DNA of 64,000 nucleotides from Sulfurimonas sp. hsl 1-7 (GTDB lineage Bacteria; Campylobacterota; Campylobacteria; Campylobacterales; Sulfurimonadaceae). Position numbers and translations under genes: made by a program. Under the pieces are notes generated by a model. The model was not told the origin of the DNA and did not search any database. It worked only from the letters and a program-made list of their open reading frames with translations. The DNA lies in assembly GCF_030577135.1 (NCBI RefSeq), contig NZ_JAUIRR010000001.1, positions 186,001 through 250,000 on the forward strand. The letters are read 5' to 3'. Shown here one piece after another: positions 56,164-63,825 of this stretch; position 1 is the first letter of the stretch; each line of letters begins with the position of its first letter.

Positions 56164-56240
56164 GGGTTCTTAGCTCAGTTGGTTAGAGCCCTCCGCTCAT
56201 AACGGAGTGGTCCCGTGTTCGAGTCACGGAGAACCCACCA
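56164..56240 (+). tRNA. tRNA with anticodon CAU (Met or Ile2)
   Basis: 77 bases with encoded CCA. Acceptor GGGTTCT pairs with AGAACCC, and the anticodon arm CTCCG-CTCATAA-CGGAG has anticodon CAT. Elongator tRNA-Met and lysidine-modified tRNA-Ile2 share this loop and cannot be told apart by eye. Its 3' end is 36 bases from the end of an integrase gene on the opposite strand and is the likely attachment site of the element to the right. Confidence 0.93.
56221..56240. mobile_element. Probable left attachment site (attL) in the tRNA 3' end
   Basis: The T arm and acceptor end of the CAU tRNA is the likely core because a tyrosine integrase is encoded next to it and reads toward it. No second copy of this tRNA tail is seen to the right, so the right end of the element is beyond 64000 or has decayed. 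Inferred from position only. Confidence 0.45.
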
Positions 56241-56276
56241 CTTTTAATCCCAAAAATACGAACTTTTTAATTTTAC

Positions 56277-57443
56277 CTAAGCTCTATTTAGATGTCTAAT
56301 TGTACTAGTGTCACCCAAAGTGTCACCAGCCTTTTTAAACAACTCTATATTTGTAGCAACCTTTAAATGCTCATTTCTGATAAAACCTGCATAGTTTTTC
56401 ATAATCATCTCTGGTGAAGTGTGTCCGACAATGGCTGCAATTTCCATTATTTTAAACTGTTCACTATTGAGCATTGCAGTGATAAAAGTGTGTCTTGTCG
56501 TATAGAGTTTTCTATAATTCATTCCACAATCTTTTACGAGCTGATGCCATCTTCTTTTAAAGAATGTAGCGTCTTTGATAAAGCTTCCATCAAACTCAAA
56601 TAGATAAAGCGATTTACTTAGTTTTCGTTGGCTTTCAATATATGGCTTTACAGCATCAAACAATGGAATATCTCTAACACTTCCTAGTGTTTTAGGTGAA
56701 GTAACCCGACCTTTGGAAACTGAACGTCTAATGGTGATTCTATCTTCCAATATATCACTATGCATCAAACCTAATATCTCACCGCTTCTCATACCAGTAT
56801 GTAAAGCAACACCTAAGTAGTTTCGAAACATGCCAGTTGAGTTTTCTAGCATTAGATTTACTTCTTGAACTGAAAAGGGTTCAATGGGAGCTTTCTCTTC
56901 TCTTTTAAACCTAATTCCAAAAGCAACATTACGCTCAATTGCATCATCATCAAGTGCAATATCTAATGTGCCTTTAATACATCCGAGATAATCTCTTTTT
57001 GTACCATTTCTTAGATTTAAAGATGCTAAGTATTCTTTAACGGTAAGAGGTTTTATTTTTGCAACATTCATATCTCCAAAGTAACGATTTACTTTGTTAT
57101 AGATTCCTATTCTCGTATGATAGCTTTTATCTGTTTTATGAAGTTCAAGAAACTTTTTAAAATAGTAAGAAAACTTTTTAGACTCTTGCTTTTTGGCTTT
57201 GAGTTCTTCCATCTTCTTAGCTATCCAAACGGGTAAATATTTTGTTTGCATATATTTGAGAGTCTTTTCAGTCTTTAGAACTTTTGTACTCTCTTGACCA
57301 ACTTTAACATCATCATTTTCAAATAACACTTGGTATTTCACATACCAAAATTTTCTGTTTCCTCGTGATAAAATAGAGGCTTTTATATCTTGCACTCTGT
57401 CTCCTTTTTTTACAAAGGATTTAGTATCACTTACAACTAACAT
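56277..57443 (-). CDS. Tyrosine-family site-specific integrase
   Basis: Protein of 388 residues with an Arm/SAM-like N-terminal part and a C-terminal catalytic domain. Catalytic residues are Arg219 ('HTGMRSGEI'), Arg317-His318 ('YTTRHTFIT'), His341 ('VGHTS') and Tyr351 ('NYAGF'). The first His of the usual HxxR box is Tyr314, as in many phage and island integrases. It probably inserts the element into the adjacent tRNA. Confidence 0.93.
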   Translation of the reverse strand: MLVVSDTKSFVKKGDRVQDIKASILSRGNRKFWYVKYQVLFENDDVKVGQESTKVLKTEKTLKYMQTKYLPVWIAKKMEELKAKKQESKKFSYYFKKFLELHKTDKSYHTRIGIYNKVNRYFGDMNVAKIKPLTVKEYLASLNLRNGTKRDYLGCIKGTLDIALDDDAIERNVAFGIRFKREEKAPIEPFSVQEVNLMLENSTGMFRNYLGVALHTGMRSGEILGLMHSDILEDRITIRRSVSKGRVTSPKTLGSVRDIPLFDAVKPYIESQRKLSKSLYLFEFDGSFIKDATFFKRRWHQLVKDCGMNYRKLYTTRHTFITAMLNSEQFKIMEIAAIVGHTSPEMIMKNYAGFIRNEHLKVATNIELFKKAGDTLGDTSTIRHLNRA

Positions 57444-57449
57444 GTTATT

Positions 57450-57680
57450 CTAACCTCTTCTAGCTAAAAGATTTTCAAGCTCATCATTTTGCTCATAACC
57501 TTTTAACCAGTTTTCAAGTGCTTCAATATCCCAAAGAACAGCTTTTTTAGTTTTAGAGTTAGTAGGCGGTATAAAAAAGTGAATACCTTTGATAAACTCT
57601 GTATGCATTCTTTGTTGGAAGTAATCAATTGACAAATCAAAAATTTCAGGAAGGTTTTTAGTTTGAAGGTATTTTTTCAT
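57450..57680 (-). CDS. AlpA/excisionase-like small DNA-binding protein
   Basis: Protein of 76 residues with a MerR/AlpA-type layout: an N-terminal helix-turn-helix followed by 'IHFFIPPTNSKTKKAVLWDIEALENWLKGYEQ', the wing-plus-helix typical of excisionases and AlpA regulators. It lies 6 bases before the integrase, a usual place for the recombination directionality factor. Confidence 0.8.
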   Translation of the reverse strand: MKKYLQTKNLPEIFDLSIDYFQQRMHTEFIKGIHFFIPPTNSKTKKAVLWDIEALENWLKGYEQNDELENLLARRG

Positions 57681-57692
57681 ACATTTTCCTTT

Positions 57693-59006
57693 CTAAAATG
57701 GATATTCACAAGGATTATCTAGTCCACGAGTTTTTAATTCAATATAAGCGTTCTCATACTTTTTAATGAGTACTTGTATATCTAAATCACTTGAACTATC
57801 TAAATCCTCTTTGAGTTTGAGAATATATTTTTGCAACTCTAAATCATCTAAATCTCTTGGATTTATTTGAGTAGTTACATTTTCATAAACGAGTTTGACA
57901 CCTTGTTTATCTTTTATAGAGTTGATATGATTCTTTTTAAACTCATCTAGCACATCTTTGAAGAACATCTCATCTATTACACCACCATGTATATGAAACT
58001 TTCTAGCTACTGCGATAGTGTCTTTAATTGCTTCGACAATTGTATATTTATAGCTCTTTCTTTTAATACGTTCTATAGGAGCTTGAATCTCAAAGAACTC
58101 TTTTAATATATAACTTTTTTCAAGATGTTCCCATAGTGGATGAGTCTTAGCTCTATGTTTATTTTTCATCTCTTTAGTGTTATCTGTAATGGAGGATAAA
58201 TCAACCATACGTATACCGTTTAAACACTCTTTGAATAACGCTTCAGCACCAGAGAGTAAATCATCTACAGTATCTATCTTAAATGTCTTTAGATAGTCTC
58301 TATGCATCTCAAATTCTATGTTGTATATATCTTTAGTTCTCTCAAACCCATTAGAGAGAAAATGAAAGTACATCATATCTTTTTTCTTTGACTTTTTAAG
58401 TTCAGCTCGTTTATCATAGAGTCTTAATAAAAAAGGGCGTTTACCTATATACAAAGTCTCTAATTTATGTTTATTTGCACGCTCTTTGATAAGTGTTTCA
58501 TATTTACGTTTACGAGTTACAAACATTGTTTTATCTATCCATGATAAATCACTTTGCACAAAGATATTTAAATCAGCTCTTGTAATTGGTTTATGACCTG
58601 TAATATAATCAACTAGAATAGCATCTATATATTGAATTAAAAACTTAATACCTAGAAAATAAATCCCTCTTGCATCTAACTGGACTTGGATATCATTTAA
58701 ACCTCTATTGGTTTTATAGTCCTTGAATCCTATAGTGAAATAACTATCAATGTGTGTAAACCAATAAAACCCTTGTGCCTTTCCATTGAAGAAAAAAGTT
58801 TGTTTATTGATGAGTACATTTATATCTTTGTTCTCATACTTTAAATCTCTCTTTTCAAACCTTGCTTTGCTTTCCTCGTATTGGTCTAATATATCTAGGA
58901 ATAAATCATCATACTGTTCATTAGTTTCATAGAAGTAGTAAAGTGTATCTATACCGCTGATAGTTTTAGGAGTACTACCTAACTCTTGTGTCTCTAAATC
59001 TTTCAA
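57693..59006 (-). CDS. Rep_trans/RstA-like replication initiator of an integrated element
   Basis: Protein of 437 residues. Its centre has the marks of the replication initiation factor family (PF02486-like, as in RstA and Gram-positive Rep proteins): 'ITRADLNIF' at 141-149 and 'TLYIGKRPFLLRLYDKRAEL' at 184-203, where the Arg/Tyr-Asp-Lys pattern is conserved. Such proteins nick an origin for rolling-circle replication. The start is TTG at 59006 and is uncertain. It shares a strand with the integrase and the AlpA-like gene, and an inverted-repeat-rich region lies upstream. Confidence 0.72.
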   Translation of the reverse strand: MKDLETQELGSTPKTISGIDTLYYFYETNEQYDDLFLDILDQYEESKARFEKRDLKYENKDINVLINKQTFFFNGKAQGFYWFTHIDSYFTIGFKDYKTNRGLNDIQVQLDARGIYFLGIKFLIQYIDAILVDYITGHKPITRADLNIFVQSDLSWIDKTMFVTRKRKYETLIKERANKHKLETLYIGKRPFLLRLYDKRAELKKSKKKDMMYFHFLSNGFERTKDIYNIEFEMHRDYLKTFKIDTVDDLLSGAEALFKECLNGIRMVDLSSITDNTKEMKNKHRAKTHPLWEHLEKSYILKEFFEIQAPIERIKRKSYKYTIVEAIKDTIAVARKFHIHGGVIDEMFFKDVLDEFKKNHINSIKDKQGVKLVYENVTTQINPRDLDDLELQKYILKLKEDLDSSSDLDIQVLIKKYENAYIELKTRGLDNPCEYPF

Positions 59007-59339
59007 TCTTTTTTACCTAACAACCTCTTTGAGGTTTAGAAGGGGGTGTTACTAGACACCCCGAACAAAAAAGGTAGCTAACGCAATCTACGCTCGAAGT
59101 GGCAAAGCCACAACTCCGCTACTAATTGCTCGTAGCTACCGCCTCGTGTGAATATTTCTTTAGATATCTATATGTTTATGCTCGTTGGTAGACCTACGCT
59201 TTCAGCTACGGCCCTTTGAGAAAGCATTTTAGCTTTGCAAACTATACGAGTTCTAAGACTCTTATGTTTCTTTCATTAATGATGGTGGAAGTATGAAGTA
59301 ATTTGGAGAAAAAGAATAGAAAAAAATTTCACATATTTC
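59007..59339. other. Inverted-repeat-rich non-coding tract, candidate replication origin
   Basis: No gene is seen in these 333 bases. From left to right: AACCTC/GAGGTT stem (59022-59036); GGGGTGT/ACACCCC stem (59043-59062); an imperfect 68-base hairpin (59073-59140) closed by GGTAGCTA/TAGCTACC with the core GTGGC-AAA-GCCAC (59099-59111); and GCTTTC/GAAAGC (59198-59203 with 59220-59225), which overlaps AAAGC/GCTTT (to 59236). The tract lies directly upstream of the Rep-like gene. It suggests a double- or single-strand origin, or alternatively regulatory leader structures. Confidence 0.55.
59073..59140. repeat. 68-base imperfect palindrome
   Basis: The outer arms GGTAGCTA(A)CG and CGTAGCTACC pair with one bulged A. 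The middle arms pair in part (CAAT against ATTG), and the centre GTGGC-AAA-GCCAC is a perfect 5-bp hairpin with a 3-base loop. As single-stranded DNA it would fold into one long hairpin, typical of rolling-circle origins. Confidence 0.7.
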
Positions 59340-60212
59340 TTAGAATTTTTTATAAACTCCTAAAAGTTTGTAAATAGGTTGAAGGTCATCATCTAAATGT
59401 TCTTTGATTTTTTCTCTCCAAGCGATATTATCTTTGTTATTCTCTATTTGTTTGTTTAAACTCTCTGTAATTGCTTTGAGATTTATTATTGATTTAATAT
59501 CATTTTTACCTGGATATGCAAAAATAAATAAGTCATTAACTATAGCTGTCACTATAGCATTATCAATTTTATTGATTTGGATTGTTGTCGGAATATCAAG
59601 TTGATAAAATAAATTTTCAATCAGTTCCTTAATTTGATATTTCTTTAAATTTGTTTGATTTAATATAAATTTATATAAAAGGATTGAAAGGGAAGTAGTA
59701 ATCCCTTTTTCTGTCAGTGGCATATACTGAAAAAATTTAAATATATTTTTTAAACTTTGATGGGTATGATACATAGCTAAATATGTTGTTTCTTTATCAT
59801 TTAACTCTGTTGCTTTCATTTTATTTTGTAAAGTTTTTATAGCCCATTGTAAATCTACATATGTCAAAAAATATGTATATGTATCACTTTGTAATTTAGT
59901 AAACTTTTCATAATCTTCCAAATATAGTTCAAACACATTTTTGTGAGTTTTCATCGTATAGCTATTGATTCTATCATTTAAGATGTCATAGTACTGTTGA
60001 TTCTGTTTAAAGGCTGTAATGTATGGACGTAAACGTTCTTTATTTTCTTTTATTCTTCTTGTTTCTATCATATCTTTGGTGTCACCATTGATATATTGAA
60101 TTAAATCAATATGCTTGGTATATATTTGATATATATCTTCACTTAAAGAGTTTATGTCTTTTTCATTAGTTTCAAGTTCTTTGAGTATATCTTGTATTAT
60201 TCGTTTCTTCAT
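59340..60212 (-). CDS. Helical protein of unknown function
   Basis: Protein of 290 residues, almost all predicted helical, Lys/Asn/Ile-rich and without signal peptide or recognised motif. Notable stretches are 'YEKFTKLQSDTYTYFLTYVDLQWAIKTLQNKMKATELNDKETTYLAMYHTHQSLKNIFKFFQ' and 'IDNAIVTAIVNDLFIFAYPGKNDIKSIINLKAITESLNKQ'. Very low GC compared with the chromosome to the left of 56000. It is divergent from the TIR-like gene, with 196 bases between starts. Confidence 0.65.
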   Translation of the reverse strand: MKKRIIQDILKELETNEKDINSLSEDIYQIYTKHIDLIQYINGDTKDMIETRRIKENKERLRPYITAFKQNQQYYDILNDRINSYTMKTHKNVFELYLEDYEKFTKLQSDTYTYFLTYVDLQWAIKTLQNKMKATELNDKETTYLAMYHTHQSLKNIFKFFQYMPLTEKGITTSLSILLYKFILNQTNLKKYQIKELIENLFYQLDIPTTIQINKIDNAIVTAIVNDLFIFAYPGKNDIKSIINLKAITESLNKQIENNKDNIAWREKIKEHLDDDLQPIYKLLGVYKKF

Positions 60213-60408: not shown

Positions 60409-61362
60409 ATGGATACTTCAATAAGAAAAAATGAAAAATGTATCATTGGTTTACCAAGTTGTGGTTATGTCTTTAATTCGACACAATCTTGTTTTATTGG
60501 ATATGGTTTTAATTCTTCTCAATTGGAGGTAGACATTATCACTAATATTCTAGAAAAAGAACATATAGAACCAGTCGAAGCAAAAAATCATTCAACATAT
60601 GCAGAAAGTGTTTTTTGCACGAAAATATGTTCTAAAATTATTACATCTCGCTTTTGTATTATTTTTGTCAATAATGATATTAAAGATGGAGTTTCAATGC
60701 CCAATGCTAATGTCAATATGGAATATGGACTAATGCTTGGTTTGAATAAACATATTATTCCTTTTCAAAAAGAAGAAGATAGTTTGGCTTTTAATATAGC
60801 TGGATTGGATACTGTAAAATATACTCAAGCTAATTTAAAAGAAAAAGCTACAAAAGCAATTAAAGAAGCTATTTTAAAGACAGCACAGCAAGAAATCTCA
60901 GACGAAGTTTCAAATGAACAAATCGAATTCTTTTTATTATCTAATGGCTTTGAAGTTACTAGTTTGGAAGATGTAGGGGAGCGAGTATTATATAAAATGG
61001 GAGCAGTTCTAAAGTTTTATTTAGCAACACATTTAAGTGGATTAGGTTATATGTATTTAGGGGATTTTAGAAGTTTAAGCACAGATACAACTGTTAAACG
61101 AATATCTAAACTGTTTGAAATACTTGCTATTAAATTAGAATCTATGAAAAAGAAACAGGAATTAAAAATTATACCATCAGATGATAAAGCTATAACAATT
61201 ATGTTACATATCTTAAAAACTTTAAAAGTATGGATTATATGTGATAATCAAACATCAAAAAATGAAGTTGAAAAACAAATCAAAGATACAAAAATCCCAA
61301 TACATTTAATAGAAGAATTAAAGGTTTTTGAATCAAGTGAAATACAAAGTGACCTTATGTAA
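60409..61362 (+). CDS. Protein with a TIR/deoxyribosyltransferase-like N-terminal domain
   Basis: Protein of 317 residues. Residues 25-140 look like a TIR-like or nucleoside-deoxyribosyltransferase-like nucleotide-processing fold: 'CFIGYGFNSSQLEVDIITNIL' (strand-helix), 'SRFCIIFVNND', then 'NANVNMEYGLMLGLNKHIIPF' (99-119) with Glu105 where such enzymes have the catalytic Glu, and 'FNIAGLDTVKYT'. The C-terminal 170 residues are unknown. The start at 60409 is chosen over 60322 because the extra residues look like random AT-rich translation. The family resemblance is by eye; an NAD- or nucleotide-degrading defence effector is plausible. Confidence 0.6.
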   Translation: MDTSIRKNEKCIIGLPSCGYVFNSTQSCFIGYGFNSSQLEVDIITNILEKEHIEPVEAKNHSTYAESVFCTKICSKIITSRFCIIFVNNDIKDGVSMPNANVNMEYGLMLGLNKHIIPFQKEEDSLAFNIAGLDTVKYTQANLKEKATKAIKEAILKTAQQEISDEVSNEQIEFFLLSNGFEVTSLEDVGERVLYKMGAVLKFYLATHLSGLGYMYLGDFRSLSTDTTVKRISKLFEILAIKLESMKKKQELKIIPSDDKAITIMLHILKTLKVWIICDNQTSKNEVEKQIKDTKIPIHLIEELKVFESSEIQSDLM

Positions 61363-62091: not shown

Positions 62092-62730
62092 TTATCTTTT
62101 GTACTTTTCTAATAATGCATTATTTTCTATTTGAGTTTTTATCACTTCAAATAATGCAATAATATCATTATGAAATTCATTATACAGTTTTAAATCAACT
62201 TGTAAATATTCACCGTGTGCAATATGATTTCGCATATCTACTAAATCATTAATTAAATCTTTTTTTGCACTAAAGGAAGATTCTTCCAAGTTTAAGATTA
62301 ATAACATTTCTTGAAATACATCATATTTTAAATTAGATTTAGTATTAATGATTCCCTTTTTTGGTATATTAGATCTATTTGTATATTCATTAAATAATGT
62401 TTCGACAACTTTTGTTTTATTGATAATACTATTTACTTCTAGATCTCCAATTTTATTTTGTAATGATAAAGCTAAAAAAGAATATTGTAGTTTATCATTT
62501 GTAAGATGTTTACTTGATACATATTCTAGGTAGCAAGATAAAGTCACTTTTACAAAACCTTCCCAATGCGCATACAATAATGGAACTGCTGAACGTAAAA
62601 AAACTGATTGCATAGCATTTTTAGTAGTAGGAATTTTATTTTGTATAATTGTTAATTCTTTTCTTCTCCATCCAAGCTCTTCAGCTAATTTATTTGTTAA
62701 ACCATCAAAAGTACGTAAATCTTTTGCCAT
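62092..62730 (-). CDS. MAE_28990-type HEPN putative RNase
   Basis: Protein of 212 residues of the HEPN superfamily. 'LLYAHWEGFVKVTLSCYLEYV' (51-71) is the conserved early helix of the MAE_28990/MAE_18760 group, and 'DMRNHIAHGEY' gives the catalytic R-x4-H motif (Arg167-His172) of metal-independent RNases. It lies 3 bases downstream of the DUF262 gene, so the two form one operon. The likely job is RNA cleavage in a defence or toxin system. Confidence 0.82.
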   Translation of the reverse strand: MAKDLRTFDGLTNKLAEELGWRRKELTIIQNKIPTTKNAMQSVFLRSAVPLLYAHWEGFVKVTLSCYLEYVSSKHLTNDKLQYSFLALSLQNKIGDLEVNSIINKTKVVETLFNEYTNRSNIPKKGIINTKSNLKYDVFQEMLLILNLEESSFSAKKDLINDLVDMRNHIAHGEYLQVDLKLYNEFHNDIIALFEVIKTQIENNALLEKYKR

Positions 62731-62733
62731 TCC

Positions 62734-63825
62734 TTATTTCCTAAAATAAGTCTTTATAAATGGTAATAAGTTTGGAATTCTAGTTCTTGCATTTGTACCA
62801 GAACCTGTGTATTTTTTAAATTCGTCATCAGAATGTAAATTTTGAATTTTTTCTATAAGTAAATCATTATCTTGAGGGAATGAATAACTATCGATATTGT
62901 AAGCTACTCCAATAGAAATTGCTTCAAATGCTGATTCTAAAAATTTACCTTTAAACTTTGTTCCATCATATCTCTTAAATGTATTGTCATCAAGTATTGA
63001 ATTTAGTATGCTAAAAGTACTAATAAACTTATCTTTAATCTTCTCATAGTCAAATTTATCTTCTAAAAGTATTTTTTCTGTAATATCATCAAAAAAATCT
63101 TTAATATCTTTTTTTGGAGTATATTCATAGTATAATAATGCAATATGCCGCAATACTAATTCTACATTATATTGTTCTTCATAAAGTCTATCACTGAGGG
63201 AGAGTGTATTTTGAAACTCTTTATTAGCAGCTAGTTCTATAAACCATTCATATGTTGGTTTATTAACCATTATCATAACACTATTTCTAACTTCCTGATC
63301 AGATGCATAAGAGCCACCTGTATTAAGTCTTTGAAAAACTTCAAACTTGGCATTTGCACCTGTATCTCCAATAATAATTGATAAGTTTAGTTTCACTCTT
63401 TTAAAATTCAATTTCACTGTATCAGGTATTTCATACTCTTTATCTTCTTCATTCTCCCATTTAAAATTTTCTAAATGTGGAAGATATTTTGTTGCTTGTA
63501 ATGTTAAAGGTTCTTTACCTTCCAAAACACCCATAAACTGTAAAATAGTAGAAACCCTTTGTAATCCATCGACAATTTCCCAAATTCCATCTTCGCGTTG
63601 AAATACAAAAATAGATGGTAAAGGAATTCTCAGCATTATTGATTCAATTAATCTAGTTTTTTGAAGAGGTGACCATCGAAAAAATCTTTGAAAGTCAGGA
63701 TTTATAACTACTTCCCCATTTATATATAAGTTTACAAGTTCTCCAATAGACATAGGGTAATTTTCATTTTTAAATTCTTCTCTTTTTACTTCAATTTCAC
63801 GTATTAATGTTTCACTTGTAGTCAT
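62734..63825 (-). CDS. DUF262-domain protein (GmrS/ParB-like)
   Basis: Protein of 363 residues. The DUF262 domain shows 'YINGEVVINPDFQRFFRWSPLQKTRLIESIMLRIPLPSIFVFQ' (35-76) and 'IWEIVDGLQRVSTILQF' (DGLQR at 86-90, variant of the DGQQR motif), then 'KFEVFQRLNTGGSYASDQEVRNS'. DUF262 is related to ParB and the N-terminal part of the GmrSD type IV restriction enzyme and is thought to bind or cleave nucleotides (family knowledge). It lacks the DUF1524 nuclease part, so the HEPN partner may supply the effector. Confidence 0.85.
   Translation of the reverse strand: MTTSETLIREIEVKREEFKNENYPMSIGELVNLYINGEVVINPDFQRFFRWSPLQKTRLIESIMLRIPLPSIFVFQREDGIWEIVDGLQRVSTILQFMGVLEGKEPLTLQATKYLPHLENFKWENEEDKEYEIPDTVKLNFKRVKLNLSIIIGDTGANAKFEVFQRLNTGGSYASDQEVRNSVMIMVNKPTYEWFIELAANKEFQNTLSLSDRLYEEQYNVELVLRHIALLYYEYTPKKDIKDFFDDITEKILLEDKFDYEKIKDKFISTFSILNSILDDNTFKRYDGTKFKGKFLESAFEAISIGVAYNIDSYSFPQDNDLLIEKIQNLHSDDEFKKYTGSGTNARTRIPNLLPFIKTYFRK

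Follow-up and report, generated by a model that had tools for sequence, protein, structure and literature searches.

The inverted-repeat tract at positions 59022-59236 of the window (the whole 64,000-nucleotide stretch of Sulfurimonas sp. hsl 1-7 DNA that we analysed) is probably the cis-acting replication region of an integrated 8.0-kb element, one of a family that is best read as inovirus satellites. We consider it quite probable that the tract comprises a rolling-circle double-strand origin together with flanking hairpins that serve as single-strand-origin or packaging elements. The earlier note on this DNA had proposed a rolling-circle origin and had made the proposal depend on a Rep_trans fold for the 57693-59006 product; the first is supported by covarying arms and the predicted fold, the second by a predicted model that matches RepDE.

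The integrated element and its genes

The element is 8,029 bp in length, is integrated in a Sulfurimonas tRNA-Met gene and ends 277 bp past the end of the window. Its principal features are as follows.

56196-56248, plus strand: attL, the 53-bp 3′ part of tRNA-Met (gene 56164-56240), an exact direct repeat
56277-57443, minus strand: tyrosine integrase (Pfam Phage_integrase, 2.7e-13)
57450-57680, minus strand: small AlpA/excisionase-like protein (a weak assignment, by clustering with family members)
57693-59006, minus strand: rolling-circle initiator (Rep) of predicted Rep_trans fold (AlphaFold2 model, invariant catalytic motif)
59340-60212, minus strand: 290-aa protein that clusters with the gene at the same place in element L048
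60409-63825: cargo block encoding a TIR protein, a 175-aa membrane protein, a HEPN protein and a GmrSD_N/DUF262 protein (Pfam)
60409-61362, plus strand: TIR protein of CAP12/Pycsar type, just under the Pfam cut-off
62092-62730: HEPN protein (Pfam)
62734-63825: GmrSD_N/DUF262 protein (PADLOC NsnA, 7.3e-61; PD-T4-2_A, 1.1e-32)
64225-64277 (window-equivalent, just past the window end): attR, the identical 53-bp copy

The related genome G082 (L123) retains an empty site, in which a single att copy joins both flanks. The claim that the element is able to replicate after excision draws support from this site and from the clean att repeats, while the replicating circle itself stands as a proposal. 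The 57450-57680 product returned no significant Pfam match, and one member of its cluster matches HTH_17 at 3.8e-5. Within the cargo, the TIR gene lies on the strand opposite to the rest of the element, and the HEPN and GmrSD_N/DUF262 pair (62092-63825) at the element's far end resembles a PD-T4-2 or NsnA defence system. No Zot/pI assembly ATPase or coat gene was found among the genes of the window element, which has a replication module and integrates and is devoid of morphogenesis genes.

The initiator

Rep homologs were detected in 22/199 related genomes. The window Rep alone matched neither the Rep_trans profile nor any relevant Pfam entry, a sequence search of the PDB returned no match, and the IMG/VR, phage and plasmid collections yielded nothing except a weak match (31 % identity) to a Paenibacillus plasmid Rep. 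With the Rep_trans profile (PF02486), 4/19 homologs matched at an E value of 1 or better (best 1.1e-4), L011 scoring 19.2 bits vs the Pfam cut-off of 29.6. Across the 19-sequence Rep alignment, Y197-D-K199-x-x-E202 (Y-x-K-x-x-E), D20, D145, E231 and E233 are invariant. Motif III of RelSt3 consists of Y252, K254 and E257, and members of the family are expected to have three acidic positions (PMC6499999); the Y-x-K-x-x-E spacing is that of RelSt3 motif III, a mapping by spacing and order only.

The AlphaFold2 model of Rep (pLDDT 78) matched RepDE (4cwe: Z 13.9, rmsd 3.7, 228 residues; 4cij: Z 13.6). Staphylococcal RepDE and Geobacillus Rep together scored Z 13.1-13.9, with the next unrelated rows at about 7, and the model also matches predicted Inoviridae Reps. 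By prediction, the Rep_trans fold of the window Rep is established. Elsewhere in the family, the Rep gene of L042 (G061:C1:2564340-2568255) is split by about 2.5 kb containing other ORFs, as by transposon insertion, and the Rep frames of G104 (L008) and G105 are also truncated.

MOBT relaxases likewise have a Rep_trans domain and motif III (PMC6499999), and the small size of the element, its integrase and its tRNA att sites would suit an integrative mobilizable element as well, with Rep a MOBT-type relaxase, the hairpin an oriT and transfer left to a foreign conjugation apparatus. We regard this as unlikely, as relatives encode an OB-fold ssDNA-binding protein beside Rep, some relatives have a hairpin in common with Zot inoviruses, and no coupling-protein-like gene was found among the annotated window cargo. 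The Rep model also begins at the first core strand, leaving no RelSt3-type N-terminal helix-turn-helix (HTH). Some MOBT-type proteins are similarly without one; hence, its absence in Rep only lowers the MOBT claim.

Inverted repeats upstream of Rep

The tract is non-coding, sits directly 5′ of the 437-aa minus-strand Rep ORF and falls within the interval from the TTG start codon of Rep (59006, minus strand) to 59340, where the upstream ORF ends. We assign the following features within it.

59022-59036, minus strand: ICRIII-like inverted repeat AACCTC-AAA-GAGGTT (arms of 6), candidate Rep binding site
59043-59062, minus strand: likely nick hairpin (double-strand origin core), GGGGTGT-CTAGTA-ACACCCC, conserved in 21 relatives with a covarying stem
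59073-59140, minus strand: H3, 68-nt imperfect hairpin with tip GTGGC-TTT-GCCAC
59136-59190, minus strand: H2, conserved helix TACCAACGAG...GAGGCGGTAG, candidate single-strand origin or packaging element
59191-59213, minus strand: H1, hairpin GGCC-GTA-GC..GC-GTA-GGTC, directly 5′ of H2

Every repeat that the earlier note named within 59022-59236 was found in its place: the arms GGTAGCTA/TAGCTACC close the imperfect hairpin 59073-59140, whose GTGGC-AAA-GCCAC core is located at 59099-59111, and a weak distal repeat lies around 59222-59237. Alignment with related elements, the check proposed there, revealed that the arms are kept and that compensatory changes are present. The list of repeats was correct but left out the conserved helices at 59136-59190 and 59191-59213; the 68-base hairpin, on which stress had been laid, is not the likely nick site.

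Repeat number and folding are weak evidence by themselves. The two perfect repeats with arms of at least 7 in the tract were equalled in 66/500 dinucleotide shuffles and reached by 160/597 windows of the same size, and folding was mildly better than that of shuffles (DNA z −2.24 for the plus strand and −1.72 for the minus strand; RNA z −2.46). As the number of repeats is not above chance, the case rests on comparison with relatives.

The probable nick hairpin

In each of the 21 relatives whose upstream DNA could be read, the Rep-coding strand carries, 33-190 nt before Rep, a hairpin whose loop contains GTAAY (CTAAC at L036, GTAAY at the other 20 loci). Its stems vary in concert (GGGGT/ACCCC, CCGAGT/ACTCGG, GGGCGT/ACGCCC): 63/66 stem cells are paired, vs 46 after shuffling of the arms, and 0/10,000 shuffles, which ignore the relatedness of the loci, reach 63. 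For this count, a register with one mismatch was used for the window and L034; in another register, their 7-bp stem pairs fully. The comparison thus yields an origin feature, namely a hairpin with a conserved loop and conserved pairing beside an initiator gene, suggesting that 59043-59062, rather than the 68-base hairpin, is likely the nick hairpin. The nick would most likely fall at G|T between 59052 and 59051, in the loop CTAG|TA of the minus strand.

In the pT181 family, the site recognized by Rep has its centre 23 bp downstream of the nick (PMC4797284). The centre of the repeat 59022-59036 lies 23.0 nt past the putative nick, a spacing found in the window and L034; the repeat is missing or elsewhere in most other relatives and is perfect in the window lineage only.

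The auxiliary hairpins

The 68-base hairpin is, in this refinement, auxiliary to the nick structure. Between H3 and its counterpart in the nearest relative (G031) there are only two substitutions, which amount to a single compensatory change from C-G to T-A, and hairpins with similar tips occur in the folds of L036, L038, L020 and L030. H1 is conserved in L034, L048, L037 and L028. Positions 59136-59140 are common to the 3′ arm of H2 and the 5′ arm of H3, so the two structures are mutually exclusive; L036 and L038 seem to have the same overlap.

For H2, the pattern TAnCAACGAG...GAGGCGn'TAG was derived from an alignment of seven upstream regions and then used to search 135 Sulfurimonas genomes, returning 11 matches vs 1 for the reversed pattern. 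The n:n' pair is Watson-Crick in 11/11 and takes all four types (A/T, T/A, C/G and G/C). Three of these matches lie in a different class of Zot-less elements (L100-L102), encoding an inovirus-type Rep and an integrase; H2 is therefore common to two Rep types and is not a Rep-specific part of the origin. This class of small elements, represented by L100 (G074), L101 (G037) and L102 (G105), contains H2, a CopG-like gene, often an ssDNA-binding gene, the inovirus-type Rep, an HTH gene and the integrase.

We also considered H2 as an integron attC site and rejected it, given that the invariant AAC/GTT core triplet is absent (the triplet in the window is ACC/GGT) and the middle pair takes all four types.

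Being 5′ of rep, the tract would form a leader if transcribed, and since it folds as RNA too (z −2.46), the hairpins could act as a leader or antisense RNA structure that controls rep, as in pT181 copy-number control. Covariation itself cannot separate DNA from RNA. We nevertheless judge such a role very unlikely, as the nearly invariant GTAA loop and a nicking-type Rep point to DNA, and neither an Rfam match within the tract nor a terminator-like site was found. In L100-L102, moreover, H2 lies upstream of what appears by eye to be promoter-like sequence of the next gene, and so is probably not a leader there.

Taking the tract as a DNA origin, we propose the following course of events. The integrase would excise a circle at the tRNA-Met att sites, and Rep would bind the repeat 59022-59036 and nick the minus strand within the 59043-59062 loop, most likely at CTAG|TA. 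The nick would drive rolling-circle replication, with the Rep-coding strand being displaced. H3, H2 and H1, just 5′ on this strand, would then serve the displaced circle as a single-strand origin or a packaging/assembly signal, although the assignment of these roles among the three is putative.

Related elements

About 20 relatives share the replication module, and most encode an OB-fold ssDNA-binding protein. Their common gene order is cargo, ssDNA-binding protein, hairpins, Rep, AlpA-like protein, integrase and tRNA. Most relatives with readable direct repeats span about 6.6 to 8.1 kb, some of these repeats being short and less certain; L051, with a truncated Rep, is shorter (3.7 kb). The 85-aa ssDNA-binding protein was modelled with a pLDDT of 89, and its closest folds are PriB/SSB, of OB type (Z 6-7), a predicted similarity that alone is not decisive. 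The protein also matches inovirus G5P by profile and Putative_G5P weakly, and a viral-structure search with the model returned no significant match. The ORFs of 290-410 aa upstream of the ssDNA-binding gene are not one family by profile comparison.

Cargo in other elements includes retron-type reverse transcriptases (L048:11851-13677 and L046:5027-5968; PADLOC RT-Toprim and RT_II-A), a PtuA-like ATPase, a methylase and Shedu-like, TIR, NACHT and KAP proteins. The source genome holds a second family element (G000:C1:94101-95396; L024, L035), which adjoins a tRNA-Ser gene and, unlike the window element, has the ssDNA-binding gene, along with a PtuA-like ATPase.

The absence of this gene from both the window element and L034, together with a genome that contains no helper, would fit a decayed remnant, past replicating, whose hairpins are historical. 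This seems improbable to us, as Rep, the integrase and the AlpA-like protein have intact frames, the two att copies match at all 53 bp, and both changes in H3 relative to G031 are compensatory.

Possible link to filamentous phages

Many Sulfurimonas genomes contain Zot-bearing inoviruses, which are common in this genus, and the family integrase profile matches the integrases of these phages, down to 1e-88. The Rep of these inoviruses is of GPA/G2P type and shows no profile match to the element Rep. Between secretin and Rep, they possess a long hairpin with a stem-GAG..CGA-stem tip, and this tip is also present upstream in four sister elements (L039, L042, L050 and L120) and in one Zot-less element with an inovirus-type Rep. 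One version of the tip, searched for genus-wide, gave 9/11 matches in such elements or inoviruses, the remaining two being in unrelated coding sequence (G206 and G048). L102 combines H2 with the inovirus tip. Loose H2 and tip patterns matched mostly unrelated contigs in IMG/VR, the tip matches including inoviruses L255, L259 and L276, and blastn of satellite against inovirus intergenic regions returned short chance matches only. In inoviruses L073 and L075-L078, a hairpin 5′ of the G5P gene, with a loop near GTCACTTCT and variable stems, is a candidate plus-strand origin.

The auxiliary module varies among otherwise similar elements, being the inovirus tip, H2 or another hairpin, as would be expected if it were read by something outside the element; perhaps the exchange of these modules matches different helpers. 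We lean modestly towards reading the family as inovirus satellites, with the window copy a likely one. Counting against this are the missing ssDNA-binding gene of the window element, an H2 module for which no counterpart was detected in the Zot-bearing inoviruses examined, and a source genome (G000) in which no Zot was found. As satellites, the elements would depend on helpers, replicating with their own Rep while helper inoviruses export them and the defence genes are carried along.

Comparison with known systems

In the Ff phages (M13, f1), the intergenic region comprises packaging and minus-strand hairpins, the plus-strand origin and then the initiator gene on the viral strand. The window has a similar order of auxiliary hairpins, nick hairpin, candidate Rep-binding repeat and rep gene. 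The likeness is one of layout rather than of demonstrated sequence homology, and the Ff initiator, the gene II product, is by contrast an HUH enzyme. With the pT181/pC221 plasmids (RepDE, RepD), the window element shares the predicted Rep_trans fold, motif III and a putative nick hairpin followed, in the window lineage, by a repeat centred about 23 bp downstream. Unlike these plasmids, it integrates by a tyrosine integrase, and its origin lies upstream of rep and is flanked by hairpins common to phage-like elements.

The ori(+) of CTXφ contains several inverted repeats and an apical loop that is nicked between G and T (PMC4439123), and RS1 is a satellite of CTXφ (PMC11389934). The resemblance to the window element lies in the Zot-less gene content and phage-type initiator of RS1, and in the inverted repeats and G|T apical-loop nick of ori(+), the latter putative here. 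RS1 has the same origin and initiator as its helper and uses host XerCD, whereas the window element has its own integrase, a tRNA att site, defence-like cargo and an initiator unrelated by profile to the GPA/G2P-type Rep of the local inoviruses. Another proposed satellite of an inovirus is an autonomous plasmid (Schmid et al. 2024, cited in PMC11389934); as described there, it too would be packaged by an inovirus, but it is a free plasmid, while the window element integrates. P4-like satellites are small, integrative, helper-dependent islands with defence hotspots and variable anti-phage genes (PMC9122126), and they resemble the window element in being small integrative islands with defence cargo but have tailed phages as helpers.

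Implications

No description of such an element family was found in the open-licence literature, and to our knowledge, few satellites of filamentous phages have been recognized, namely RS1 and one plasmid. We put it at about an even chance that the elements constitute an undescribed Sulfurimonas family of integrative, defence-carrying inovirus satellites with their own Rep_trans initiator and exchanged hairpin modules. Here, a family of about 20 members in one bacterial order carries defence cargo and, in part, a hairpin tip common to the resident inoviruses, and its covarying DNA helices supply exact positions for mutation. If true, the satellite reading would make it possible to ask which DNA hairpin is packaged by a filamentous phage and in what way small mobile elements that have no capsid themselves spread defence genes.
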